From a virus: a stretch of DNA of 46,428 nucleotides. Location: positions 1 to 46,428 of IMG/VR virus record IMGVR_UViG_3300022920_000012; one strand, written 5' to 3'. How positions within the stretch are numbered: position 1 is the stretch's first letter; each line of letters opens with the position of its first letter. The position numbers were made by a program, and so were the translations under genes. The notes under the pieces were generated by a model. It was given only the letters and a program-made list of their open reading frames with translations. It made no database searches and was not told the origin of the DNA. Shown piece by piece: positions 13,019 through 28,543 of this stretch.

Positions 13019-14065
13019 ATGAAAACTATTAAATTGAAAGACGGTTCAACTCTGGTCATGGACGGTATGAGCGCAGTTCACACTAGCGGTCCTAGTTCTA
13101 GACAAGTGCATCTAGACGTAGCTATTTCTATGGCTATTGGTAACGGTATCATGGATGCAGATGGCGCGGTATTCTTCCAACGTCAACTAGAGCATATTAA
13201 GGCTCGTAGCTATGATGTTAAGTATGCTGAGTTAAAAGCTCGTTCTCTATTCCCAGTTAGTAACGAAGGTGGTGCGGGTATCACATCTATTACTTATCGT
13301 ACTTATGATCAAGCTGGTTCTGCTAAAATCATCAATGCTTATGCTGATGATTTGCCTCGTGCGGATGTAGCAGGTAAGGAAACCACTATTCCTGTTCGTT
13401 CAGTGGGTATTTCTTACGGTTACAACTTGGATGAGATTCAAGCTTCTCAGTTGACAGGTATGTCATTAGATCAACGTCGTGCTAATGCTGCTCGTCGTTC
13501 TAATGAACAAGTTGTTAATGATGTGGCTTTCTTCGGAGACGCTGAATCTAATCTTCCGGGATTATTTAGCAATCCTAATATCCCAACAGGTGCGGTAGTT
13601 AATCCTGGTTCTGGTACTGAATGGGTTAACAAGACTCCGGATCAAATCTTATTTGACGTTAACGATTTGTTCGCTGACATTTTTGAGACAACTAACATGG
13701 TCGAGCAAGGTAATACGTTACTTATGCCTCCTGCTCAGTGGTCTTACATTATGTCTACTCCTCGTTCTAGCAATAGCGACACTACCATTGCTCAGTACTT
13801 GGCGAACAATAGCCCGTATCTAAACAGCATTGAAGATATGATCCCTATTAACGAATGTTCCGCAGCCAATAATCCAGAATTGTCTACGGATGCGATGGTA
13901 GCTTATGATCGTAACCCTGATAAACTTCAATTGGAAATTCCAGTTGAATTGGAAATGCTACCTATCCAGCAGAAGAATTTGGAATTTGTTGTTCCAGGTC
14001 GTTCTCGATTAGCTGGATTGAACATTTATTATCCAATGTCACTTGCTATTGCTACGGGGATTTAA
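13019..14065 (+). CDS. Major capsid protein, DUF2184 family (HK97 fold)
   Basis: 348 residues. Family signatures include RQVHLDVAISMAIGNGI, ELKARSLFPVSNEGGAG, ISYGYNLDEIQASQ and TLLMPPAQWSYIMSTPRSS. The upstream GGAGG-type site (CGGAGGATAATTATG) is strong and the codon use favours T/A-ending highly expressed codons, both fitting the most abundant virion protein. Proteolytic trimming by the upstream protease is possible but no cleavage site is evident. Confidence 0.93.
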   Translation: MKTIKLKDGSTLVMDGMSAVHTSGPSSRQVHLDVAISMAIGNGIMDADGAVFFQRQLEHIKARSYDVKYAELKARSLFPVSNEGGAGITSITYRTYDQAGSAKIINAYADDLPRADVAGKETTIPVRSVGISYGYNLDEIQASQLTGMSLDQRRANAARRSNEQVVNDVAFFGDAESNLPGLFSNPNIPTGAVVNPGSGTEWVNKTPDQILFDVNDLFADIFETTNMVEQGNTLLMPPAQWSYIMSTPRSSNSDTTIAQYLANNSPYLNSIEDMIPINECSAANNPELSTDAMVAYDRNPDKLQLEIPVELEMLPIQQKNLEFVVPGRSRLAGLNIYYPMSLAIATGI

Positions 14066-14067
14066 TC

Positions 14068-14364
14068 ATGTCTGGGATCACAAACAACACTGCTCGTCAA
14101 TTTAACTTAAAAACTATCAATGAAAACGGAAGTAGAGTTACCGTTAGGATCGCACCAGGATTTAACGTGGTTGAAGATTCTCACTGGGTTTCTTTTGTTT
14201 CCAAAGACGGTAAGAAAGTTGACCCTTATGTCGCTGAACTCAAAAAGAAAGGTCAACTTTCTTTTGGTAAAGAGGAAGACGACAAGGAGCTAGATCAAGA
14301 CCCTGACACTAAGTCTAAGTCTAAATCTGTACCAGCTCCAAAGGCTAAAAAGACTGACAAGTAG
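14068..14364 (+). CDS. Small lysine-rich head protein, 98 aa
   Basis: Starts just after the capsid stop. N-terminal 65 residues form a compact beta segment (RVTVRIAPGFNVVEDSHWVSFVSKD); the C-terminal third is charged and low-complexity (EEDDKELDQDPDTKSKSKS, PAPKAKKTDK). Position suggests a head accessory or head-tail joining factor; family not recognised. Confidence 0.6.
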   Translation: MSGITNNTARQFNLKTINENGSRVTVRIAPGFNVVEDSHWVSFVSKDGKKVDPYVAELKKKGQLSFGKEEDDKELDQDPDTKSKSKSVPAPKAKKTDK

Positions 14365-14373
14365 TAAGTAATA

Positions 14374-14449
14374 AGAATGAGCCTTGATTTATTTCGAGGC
14401 TCATTCTAATTGTACATACTTAACGTAGGGAATGCACAATTAGAATGAG
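14374..14449 (+). promoter_or_regulatory. Three-arm mutually exclusive hairpin (attenuator-like switch)
   Basis: Arm A AGAATGAGCCT (14374-14384) pairs perfectly over 11 bp with arm B AGGCTCATTCT (14397-14407). Arm B extended, CTCATTCTAATTGT (14400-14413), also pairs perfectly over 14 bp with arm C ACAATTAGAATGAG (14436-14449). A-B and B-C cannot form together. Arm C holds the only Shine-Dalgarno-like GAG before the ATG at 14458. A-B would leave the next gene open; B-C would hide its ribosome site. There is no U-tract, so a simple terminator is less likely. Confidence 0.75.
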
Positions 14450-14457
14450 ATCATCTT

Positions 14458-14898
14458 ATGGGTATTAATGAGATAAATAGTAAAGGGCTTTCTACAGTGA
14501 ACGAATTATCAGAAGCTAGGCTGTGGAAAACTTTAGACAATATCTCAGAAAGACTAGGTACTATAGAAGAAAGACTCGCAGAAGTAGTTAGATTAGAAGA
14601 AAGAGTTAATAGCCATGAGCAAGCTCTTTCTAGATATGGTAACAGATTGGATACTCACGATAAGCGAATACATGACTCGGAAATATGGCAAGCTAGTTAC
14701 GGAGATAAATCTTCGTTGGAGAGAACAATATCCTCAATAAAAAAGGACTTACATGACACCAGACTTAAGATAGAAGATCTTGAGTCTAACGGAAACATAC
14801 GTAGGGGTCAGCGAGACATAAGTAAAGAGATTTTCAAATGGGTAGCTGGTATATTAGGTGCGATATTGGTTTACACACTCACTAAGGGTTCACAATGA
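14458..14898 (+). CDS. Coiled-coil protein with C-terminal membrane anchor, 146 aa
   Basis: Residues about 10-110 are a long heptad-type helix (TIEERLAEVVRLEERVNSHE, RLDTHDKRIHDSE, SIKKDLHDTRLKIEDLES). The end has one transmembrane segment, KWVAGILGAILVYTL (about 127-142). The layout resembles XhlA-type haemolysin/holin accessory proteins, but the gene sits between capsid and head-tail connector genes, not with the lysis genes. It could be a membrane-acting virion or lysis factor. Expression probably depends on the switch just upstream. Confidence 0.6.
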   Translation: MGINEINSKGLSTVNELSEARLWKTLDNISERLGTIEERLAEVVRLEERVNSHEQALSRYGNRLDTHDKRIHDSEIWQASYGDKSSLERTISSIKKDLHDTRLKIEDLESNGNIRRGQRDISKEIFKWVAGILGAILVYTLTKGSQ

Positions 14899-15287
14899 GT
14901 ATTAGTGTTTCGGAATTTAGAATTAGGTTTCCCGAGTTTTCAGATGAAGCTGAGTACTCGGATCCCAGAGTCTTGTTGTTTATAGGAGACTCTACTGCGT
15001 ATATAGGTACGGATGAGTTGAGATGGGGAAACAAATACAACCTAGCCCAATCTTATTTGTCAGCTCATTTATTGATATCAGCTGAGAAAACGGAACTGGG
15101 AGATATATCATCTAGTTCCGGAACAATACAGTCTAAGTCCGCAGGAGGAGTCTCAGTATCTAAATCAGTAGTTGCCAAAGACCGATCCGATTTAGATGAT
15201 TTTTATATAGGTACTTCTTACGGTCAACAGTTCCTAAATATTAGGAACTTATGTTTTGCTGGCGGCATAGTAGCAAATAAATTATGA
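14895..15287 (+). CDS. Head-tail connector, DUF4054 family
   Basis: 130 residues with the family pattern: SVSEFRIRFPEFSDEAEYSD at the start, helical middle (NLAQSYLSAHLLIS), Ser/Gly loop SSSGTIQSKSAGGVSVSK, and end SYGQQFLNIRNLCFAGG. DUF4054 proteins are adaptor subunits below the portal (gp6/gp15-like). The start overlaps the previous stop by 4 nt. Confidence 0.85.
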   Translation: MSISVSEFRIRFPEFSDEAEYSDPRVLLFIGDSTAYIGTDELRWGNKYNLAQSYLSAHLLISAEKTELGDISSSSGTIQSKSAGGVSVSKSVVAKDRSDLDDFYIGTSYGQQFLNIRNLCFAGGIVANKL

Positions 15288-18114: not shown

Positions 18115-18534
18115 ATGAAAGAATATAGTTTCTTAGATACAATATTCCTAGTGAATGGAGTTGAAATATCAGGCTACGATGAAGGTGATGATGTTATTTC
18201 TTTGGACAGACTTAACGACTCGGCTTCCCACAAAATAGGTACTGACGGAGAAATGACAGTTGGATTAAGTGCTGACCGATCTGGAACAATAGTTTTCAGA
18301 TTAATGCAGACTTCAGACTCCAATTCTTATATGTCTGGTTTAATCACTGCTCAAGAAAATGGAATTTTCGTTCCTATTTTCGCTCAGTTTAAAGACACTA
18401 GGGGTAATGATTTAGGTTCAGGAACTCAAGGTTACATACCTAAACCCGCAGGTATGACTAGAGGTACAGCCCCTGGAAATCAAGAATGGAGTATTGTTGT
18501 TGAAAGATTAGACCTCTTACATTTAGGAGGTTAA
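18115..18534 (+). CDS. Tail tube protein, DUF3277 family
   Basis: 139 residues with the family motifs MKEYSFLDTIFLVNGVEISGYDEGDDVI, DGEMTVGLSADRSGTIVFRLMQTSDSN and EWSIVVERLDLLHLGG. It stacks as hexameric rings inside the sheath. An AGAGGAT ribosome site precedes it and a long stable hairpin follows the stop. Confidence 0.92.
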   Translation: MKEYSFLDTIFLVNGVEISGYDEGDDVISLDRLNDSASHKIGTDGEMTVGLSADRSGTIVFRLMQTSDSNSYMSGLITAQENGIFVPIFAQFKDTRGNDLGSGTQGYIPKPAGMTRGTAPGNQEWSIVVERLDLLHLGG

Positions 18535-18538
18535 TAAG

Positions 18539-18600
18539 TTTCCTAGGGAGGGATGAGTGCCTTGTGATCCCGACACCATAAGAGCACTCTCCCTAGGAAA
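18539..18600 (+). promoter_or_regulatory. Long hairpin between tube and tail-chaperone genes
   Basis: TTTCCTAGGGAG (18539-18550) is the exact reverse complement of CTCCCTAGGAAA (18589-18600). Inside it GAGTGC (18555-18560) pairs with GCACTC (18584-18589) after a short bulge. There is no U-tract downstream. It may protect the abundant tube mRNA from 3' decay and lower read-through. The AGGA of the 3' arm could also serve the GTG at 18609, which the hairpin would hide. Confidence 0.75.
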
Positions 18601-18644
18601 ACCTTAATGTGTCGGAAATCATAATCAATTGGTCGGAGTTTATT

Positions 18645-19070: not shown

Positions 19071-19252
19071 AGAAAGGCAAGTTCCCGAATGTAGATCCGT
19101 TTCTACATAGGCCGCTATTATGTGAGCCGCCTATGTGTAGTTTAAAGGATTTACAAGACGGTACATACTCTATAGAAGACTTGTTCATGATGAACGAGTT
19201 ATTAGATTTAAAGGCTCATTCATCAAATAAAGGTAAAGCGAAAACCCGATGA
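18645..19252 (+). CDS. Tail assembly chaperone, -1 frameshift fusion (gpGT-like)
   Basis: Reading shifts -1 at AAATTTG (19010-19016), after which a frame open from 19004 continues to TGA 19250-19252. The fusion has about 202 residues. The 78-residue extension ends with GTYSIEDLFMMNELLDLKAH, which resembles the T-part of tail chaperones that contacts the tape measure. The stop overlaps the tape measure start. An imperfect hairpin (CTACATAGGC/GCCTATGTGTAG, 19103-19140) lies inside the extension. Confidence 0.8.
19010..19049 (+). promoter_or_regulatory. Programmed -1 ribosomal frameshift signal
   Basis: Slippery heptamer A AAT TTG (19010-19016) in the correct frame. It is followed after 6 nt by a perfect 6-bp stem GGCCAG (19023-19028) / CTGGCC (19044-19049) with a 15-nt loop. 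Heptamer, spacing and stem all fit the X XXY YYZ rule for -1 shifts. It joins the chaperone to the extension ending at 19252. Confidence 0.85.
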
Positions 19253-27640: not shown

Positions 27641-28176
27641 TACTAAGTATATTAGCAGCACTTTCCACTGGAGCTGGTGGGGGATTGTTAGGTGGGTTTT
27701 TCGGTTTGTTTAAACAAAGCCAGGAGCGAAAAGAACGAGTTGAAATGGCTCGTATAGAATTAGAAAGAGACAATGCGGAATACGCCAATGATAAGGCAGA
27801 AAGAGAACACGCATTGTCCATGCTAGAAAAAGGAGGTCGTTTAGAAATAGAAAAAGTAATGACTGAGTCTGAAGCCGAGATAGAAGTTTCTCATCAAGAA
27901 ACATTAGGTAAGGCTACTATTGCTGAGTTCGCTAATTTGAATACTTCTTCTTGGATGGACAACTTCAGAGCTTCTATTAGGCCGTCATTAGCAGTTTGGG
28001 CTTCGGCTTTATTTACTGCTATGCTTATATGGGCTTTTAAAGAATTTTCAGGAGATCTAACGGCTCAAGAAGGTAAAGAAATATTACTAGGTTTGTTCGC
28101 AACCTTATCATTCACAGTATCTAGCGTGGTGACTTTCTATTATGTATCCCGTCGTAACTCTGCACCGAAAATATAA
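27637..28176 (+). CDS. Holin-like membrane protein (3TM holin family)
   Basis: 179 residues: one N-terminal hydrophobic segment (ILAALSTGAGGGLLGGFFGLF), a long charged coiled coil (about 27-100), then two transmembrane segments (LAVWASALFTAMLIWAF and EILLGLFATLSFTVSSVVTFYYV). This is the layout of three-TM holins (gene-transfer-agent release type). It permeabilises the inner membrane to trigger lysis. It overlaps the next gene by 35 nt, which is unusual and suggests coupled expression. Confidence 0.72.
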   Translation: MILSILAALSTGAGGGLLGGFFGLFKQSQERKERVEMARIELERDNAEYANDKAEREHALSMLEKGGRLEIEKVMTESEAEIEVSHQETLGKATIAEFANLNTSSWMDNFRASIRPSLAVWASALFTAMLIWAFKEFSGDLTAQEGKEILLGLFATLSFTVSSVVTFYYVSRRNSAPKI

Positions 28177-28543
28177 AAAGGATTGCACTCTAGCTACTGT
28201 CACATTACCTAGCGGCAACCAAATAAAGACCATAGAAAGACCTTGGTTGGATAACAAGAGTAATGTGTCTTGTTATCCAGAGGGTCTGTATATGGCTAAA
28301 TGGTTAGCTAGGTCAGGTAGTGGTAAATACAAAAGAGTGTGGCACATTATAAATGTCCCAAATAGATCTGGTATATTGTGGCATCAAGGTAACTTAGTAA
28401 AACATAGTAGAGGATGTACCATAGTAGGTTCTAGGCATGGAGTATTAGGAGGACTACCTGCTGTATTAGGGTCTAAGTCCGGTCTTAATAAGATGAGAAG
28501 AGAGTTAGCTGGTAAAGATTTCATATTGCTAGTTATTTCTTAA
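28142..28543 (+). CDS. DUF5675 family protein
   Basis: 133 residues with the family core: GLYMAKWLARSGSGKYKRVWHIINVPNRSGILWHQGN ... SRGCTIVG. His81, Ser89 and Cys92 form an H-x7-S-x2-C pattern resembling L,D-transpeptidase (YkuD) sites. The function is not proven; position after the holin suggests a cell-wall role. It ends convergently with the helicase gene, overlapping it by 15 nt at the 3' end. Confidence 0.7.
   Translation: MYPVVTLHRKYKKDCTLATVTLPSGNQIKTIERPWLDNKSNVSCYPEGLYMAKWLARSGSGKYKRVWHIINVPNRSGILWHQGNLVKHSRGCTIVGSRHGVLGGLPAVLGSKSGLNKMRRELAGKDFILLVIS

Follow-up and report, generated by a model that had tools for sequence, protein, structure and literature searches.

A tandem of hairpins sharing one strand behind phage capsid genes: a possible leaky terminator with a read-through duplex

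How does a phage make capsid subunits in their hundreds for every single set of neck proteins, when one operon often encodes both? The question is raised by a short stretch of RNA, 14374-14449, encoded in a 46.4-kb virus record (IMG/VR IMGVR_UViG_3300022920_000012; all 46,428 nucleotides were analysed and are called the window here). The record carries a late operon of the myovirus type, in which the genes for portal, protease, cement protein and major capsid protein are followed by a 98-aa gene, the element, a coiled-coil gene and the genes for DUF4054, neck and sheath. The capsid gene (PF09950, phrog_264, by profile matches) occupies 13019-14065 of the plus strand. Behind it, the 98-aa gene (14068-14364, plus strand) has no assigned function and is conserved between the capsid gene and the element. 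The coiled-coil gene (14458-14898, plus strand) encodes a hydrophobic C-terminal stretch and is weakly similar to the phage 'hemolysin' families phrog_937 and phrog_1193; the DUF4054 head-to-tail protein gene (14895-15287, plus strand, by profile matches) is the next conserved gene downstream. The 98-aa gene matches no family and was found only among metagenomic relatives of this virus, with no protein relative among cultured phages; it also had no relative in cellular genome contigs, and there is therefore no prophage or host context. Its product has an invariant N-terminal motif, TARQFNLK, and a variable Lys-rich tail. Among cultured phages, the closest capsid relatives reach no more than about 40% identity, and a DNA search returned none.

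An earlier note on this DNA had described three arms, of which the middle one, B, could pair perfectly with A over 11 bp or with C over 14 bp, and both pairings are indeed there. Sequence, arm search and folding place arm A at 14374-14384 (AGAATGAGCCT), paired perfectly over 11 bp with 14397-14407, the first part of arm B; a U.G, a G-C and an A-U pair lengthen this helix to 14 bp (14374-14387 with 14394-14407). We call this hairpin H1. Arm B also pairs perfectly over 14 bp (14400-14413) with arm C (14436-14449), and the helix continues beyond one mismatch up to a 6-nt loop, giving a second hairpin, H2 (14400-14449, with arms 14400-14417 and 14432-14449, by arm search and folding), which would form in read-through RNA only. 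Arm C ends 8 nt before the start codon at 14458. An inverted-repeat search returned the same arms (14370-14387 with 14394-14411, 89% complementary; 14400-14417 with 14432-14449, 94%), all on the plus strand. The predicted fold of the element has an energy of -33.1 kcal/mol, as compared with a mean of -16.6 for shuffled sequences (z -5.66; equalled by 0 of 200 shuffles), and is the third strongest local structure in the whole window.

The same 8-mer, AGAATGAG, stands in arm A (14374-14381) and at the end of arm C (14442-14449), and both copies compete for CTCATTCT in arm B (14400-14407; sequence and folding). Because the two copies are identical, the contest is clean on these eight nucleotides, and to that extent A and C exclude each other on B as the earlier note had it; elsewhere the pairings are not wholly exclusive, the upper part of A:B and the complete B:C coexisting in the minimum-energy fold. 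Forcing the full A:B helix gives -32.4 kcal/mol, a cost of only 0.7 kcal/mol, and the strand exchange is therefore nearly neutral. The predicted fold of a nascent RNA that ends before C is the full A:B helix, and H2 takes over once C is out. A three-arm element with A and C competing for B is thus genuine.

Relatives were fetched by capsid gene (39 loci) and by 98-aa gene (65 loci), which gave 50 distinct intergenic regions. Forty of these have H1 and H2 at the same place and in the same layout: the stop codon, a GC-rich H1 and then directly a long AT-rich H2, in which the U-tract of H1 serves as 5' arm (14403-14413 in the window, by alignment of relatives, where it reads ATTCTAATTGT and is weak). 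The remaining 10 have almost no gap, a single hairpin or a doubtful second hairpin. Sequences diverge widely among the relatives and the pairing is retained, so that the base-pair conservation on which the earlier note had staked its reading is present, with pairs that covary. Across 18 members aligned with a covariance model, 92.6% of cells paired (75.2% when shuffled, 37-54% when slid), the covariation score was 0.544 against 0.206, and two-sided changes were found in all 6 H1 pairs and in 12 of 16 outer H2 pairs. The effect size leans towards this structure, to which the alignment had been fitted, but every slid control collapses. The model matches the window at 14373-14449 with an E value of 9.8e-7, a score that, like those of the other members, is not independent, because the window and other family members went into building the model. 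In 26 representatives H1 measures 8-17 bp and H2 15-23 bp. Sequence counts here and below are not counts of independent events. A search of Rfam returned nothing above the curated gathering thresholds for any family, and only short stems and variable loops are conserved, in agreement with the earlier note, which had seen no ligand domain. Ordinary homology searches and Rfam miss the element because it is tied to a position rather than to a sequence. An outer helix around both hairpins that reaches the start codon is present in the window and was discarded, as it is not conserved in relatives.

The conserved molecule is the RNA. Scored symmetrically in the stems of the 26 representatives, G-U combinations number 84 and A-C combinations 11, with G-U in excess in 23 of them, and plus-strand RNA is therefore what is conserved. 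Nearly perfect inverted repeats would also suit a feature of the DNA itself, such as a recombination site, and the minus strand, too, scores weakly with the covariance model. However, this strand asymmetry, the fixed place in the operon and the single strong match per genome led us to reject a cruciform, a packaging site or a mobile inverted repeat, and we consider a DNA-level role of any of these kinds very improbable.

H1 has the GC-rich hairpin of an intrinsic (Rho-independent) terminator and, in the family, its U-tract. Directly behind the last G-C pair of H1, U makes up 85, 69, 73 and 81% of the bases at the first four positions, and just 1 of the 234 bases in the first nine positions is G. 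The tract of the window itself (ATTCTAAT) is among the weakest of the set, and a simple terminator scan does not flag it. In all 9 distant cultured phages of the same capsid family that we inspected, a hairpin lies right behind the capsid gene, 6 times with a U-tract; that of Klebsiella phage Sin4 is annotated as a terminator. None of the nine has an H2 on its U-tract, H1 standing alone. Given the U-tract and these distant hairpins, H1 is best read as this family's version of the post-capsid intrinsic terminator. Such a terminator would have to be leaky, because plus-strand genes run on for 14 kb beyond the element and no sigma-70-like promoter was seen on the plus strand between 13909 and 15082. 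A weak terminator in a phage intergenic region has been measured, at T4 mobE, where about 30% of transcripts end (PMC2988022).

The two hairpins are joined through one strand. H2 starts on the U-tract and pairs all of it, and the bases of H1 and H2 share arm B. Arm A reaches into the U-tract by 2.54 nt, as compared with 1.09 nt in shuffled flanks (0 of 400 shuffles as high). In the alignment, 80.6% of cells in the columns of this extension are paired, as compared with 42-69% in slid controls. Arms A and C change in step with B across relatives: A/B/C read AGAATGAG/CTCATTCT/AGAATGAG in the window, GAAAGTTC/GAACTTTC/GAAAGTTC in locus L106, TAATACC/GGTATTA/TAATACC in L060 and AAGAA/TTCTT/AAGAA in L072. 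Only 0-2 bp are contested in L101, L056, L057, L092, L067 and L097; sharing of the strand is therefore not obligatory.

A scan for the H2 core pattern led to a separate, T5-like group, in which a T5-type capsid gene (Peptidase_S78 and PF05065) is followed by a gene for a head completion protein (PF24163). The tandem lies just upstream of the PF24163 gene in 25 of 25 fetched loci, and 4-9 pairs are contested in each of 14 representatives; B reads TGTC, TTGTC, TTGTTC, TGTTT, GATC or TATC, in each case with an A and a C that match it. Cultured carriers, with three divergent versions of the tandem, are the Tequintaviruses NR01 and FGS017 and the T5-like contig LM 4-11-1. In NR01 and FGS017 an endonuclease gene stands behind the capsid gene, and the strand-sharing tandem precedes it (L267 3513-3601, L273 1014-1102, L270 364-455). 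Behind the capsid gene of T5_ev212, Spivey, Bennett, DU_PP_V and VCPH stands just one terminator of the ordinary kind; in NR01 this terminator of its relatives is found after the endonuclease gene. The Tequintavirus tandem may have arrived together with the endonuclease insertion. Altogether, pattern scans for AT palindromes gave at least 356 loci, which were passed through a filter for tandems. Among the 356 loci listed, at least 14 places passed, 12 of them behind a capsid gene or its 98-aa neighbour, all in the two families; this speaks for consistency of place and not for frequency, because most loci were recruited by the H2 core of these same families. Similar strand-sharing tandems at L178 and L332, among the loci listed, are not behind a capsid gene. 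The element thus recurs behind two capsid families, PF09950 and PF05065, and in at least three phage groups, with common descent and separate arrival both possible.

Is H2 needed to explain the locus? H1 might act alone as an ordinary terminator or 3' stabiliser of the capsid mRNA, with H2 a by-product, a palindrome kept by template-switch repair at quasi-palindromes. Template switching perfects inverted repeats and could also yield matching A and C arms, and both the distant relatives and the T5-like phages without the inserted gene have just H1 with a good U-tract. Repair of this kind, however, predicts Watson-Crick pairs and no excess of G-U, yet in H2 alone G-U outnumbers A-C by 90 to 7 (42 members), 16 of 18 members retain a U.G beside the loop-closing pair, and H2 stays within the constant length range given above. 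We therefore regard a role for H1 only as unlikely, if still the strongest of the competing explanations.

The apex of H2 has a recurrent order beside the loop (U-A, U.G, N-N', U.G; columns 62-73 of alignment A5). Wobbles conserved near a loop could mark the operator to which a protein of the phage or its host binds, perhaps in capsid feedback or as a processivity factor. Such a site would fit with the U.G in columns 62-73 of 16 of 18 members; counting from the loop, moreover, 11 of 26 members have U.G at the second position and 10 at the third. Against this, neither the sequence nor the length of the loop is conserved, and the Tequintavirus versions do without this apex; we consider a protein operator improbable.

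The earlier note had read the three arms as an attenuator or a translational switch, and neither reading fits the order of the arms or the relatives. In attenuators the anti-terminator forms first. Here the terminator-like helix, A:B with its U-tract, is transcribed before C, and because C lies downstream of the U-tract and is made after H1, B:C cannot control termination at H1. As to translation, H2 could hide the ribosome site and start of the coiled-coil gene, to be freed by full A:B pairing or by a ribosome stopped at 14362-14364. In the window the ribosome-site element placed in arm C by the earlier note is present as GAG (14447-14449), merely 3 nt, when about two thirds of the operon genes examined have a match of 4-6 nt; in the ensemble this GAG is mostly paired, as is the AU of the start codon. 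The energies of the two states hardly differ, and L062 likewise has AAGGAG within H2. In most relatives, however, H2 ends 10-60 nt before the start codon and the ribosome site lies outside it, with clear overlap found only in L062, in L049, which is a near twin of the window, and in the window itself. Across relatives the start region pairs with its 5' flank no more than expected by chance (mean z 0.18; p 0.13 in the window), and in the T5-like group the ribosome site lies just 3' of H2, free in both states. In addition, L072 keeps the element and has no coiled-coil gene (L060 has another gene in its place). A translational switch is thus doubtful, more so than a role for H1 alone and less so than a protein operator. 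The suggested trigger, the arrival of ribosomes from the 98-aa gene, is possible in the window's family, where mostly 2-12 nt separate the stop codon from H1; this distance is larger in the T5-like group (8-24 nt).

We favour, by a little better than even chances, a leaky post-capsid terminator with a hairpin made only on read-through, which together would set the capsid-to-neck stoichiometry and the boundary between two messages. The form of H1, the placement of H2 on the U-tract and the co-variation of A and C with B are computed, and from them we infer the role of H2. H1 would act as a leaky terminator and provide the 3' end of the capsid mRNA, so that fewer polymerases would get to the neck and tail genes. 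On read-through, arm C would emerge, capture B by branch migration and open the base of H1, burying the U-tract in a duplex of 15-23 bp stacked on H1. Read-through RNA would thus be structurally unlike terminated RNA. The duplex may then be cut, most obviously by RNase III, so that H1 would remain to cap the 3' end of the capsid message; alternatively, it may shield the AU-rich junction and cap the downstream message. Both processing and protection would fit the sequence, and either would give high expression of the capsid genes, lower expression of the genes downstream and a defined boundary between two messages. Counting against this mechanism are the window's weak and unflagged U-tract, the relatives with almost no contested pairs and the distant relatives that manage with H1 alone. 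More tentatively, at somewhat less than even chances, the tandem may be a new kind of RNA element, which has arisen or spread in these phage groups and in which strand exchange on read-through dismantles the base and U-tract of a post-capsid terminator, so that one place yields two messages with different ends and stabilities and the capsid-to-neck ratio is fixed.

Three other places on the window deserve mention. A large imperfect hairpin at 18540-18603 (plus strand, fold z -4.6, no U-tract behind it) follows the tail tube-position gene (18115-18534) and precedes the tail assembly chaperone; it is a candidate second boundary after a highly expressed gene. The gap of 178 nt between the chaperone and the tape measure gene (19071-19248) is a site where many phages hide a frameshifted second chaperone. 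A very strong local structure (28216-28305, plus strand, fold z -6.3) lies inside the last plus-strand ORF (28142-28543), just before the start of the convergent minus-strand operon.

If the proposed mechanism is true, such ratios could be set quite generally by a small conserved RNA boundary that distinguishes terminated transcripts from read-through ones, and designed operons would gain a usable part. Its recurrence behind PF09950 and PF05065 capsid genes makes the question testable in cultured phages.

Several known systems resemble the element in part. Attenuators and riboswitches also have three arms and a middle arm with two alternative pairings; here the terminator-like hairpin comes first, there is no leader peptide or ligand domain, and the ribosome site is not conserved in arm C. 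Hairpins that hide ribosome sites are known upstream of T4 homing endonuclease genes, soc, e and others (PMC2988022). They, too, are intergenic phage hairpins upstream of a gene, and the Tequintavirus tandems also precede an endonuclease gene, but the ribosome site is not hidden in most members here. A nearer parallel is the hairpin just upstream of a free ribosome site at seg43 of Aeromonas phage 25 (PMC2988022). In our literature search, partial for subscription journals, no publication was found that describes such a strand-sharing tandem behind capsid genes. The intrinsic terminators that follow capsid genes in phages, such as that of Sin4 and T-phi behind gene 10 of T7, are alike in position, GC-rich hairpin, U-tract and the need to be leaky; here a second hairpin starts right on the U-tract and has the base strand in common with the first. 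The late genes of T7 have RNase III processing sites between them, which are likewise intergenic duplexes in late phage mRNA; these are not known to be built on a terminator U-tract. The length of H2 is compatible with an RNase III substrate, no more. The nearest precedent for a read-through duplex would be retroregulation at lambda tI/sib, where read-through creates an RNase III substrate, whose cleavage lowers expression of the gene upstream. In both cases a terminator is followed by RNA that, on read-through, can form a longer duplex absent from terminated RNA, arm C lying here downstream of the U-tract. In contrast to lambda sib, which acts behind int and lengthens the terminator stem itself, the element described here stands behind capsid genes and would use a separate downstream hairpin to invade the terminator base.
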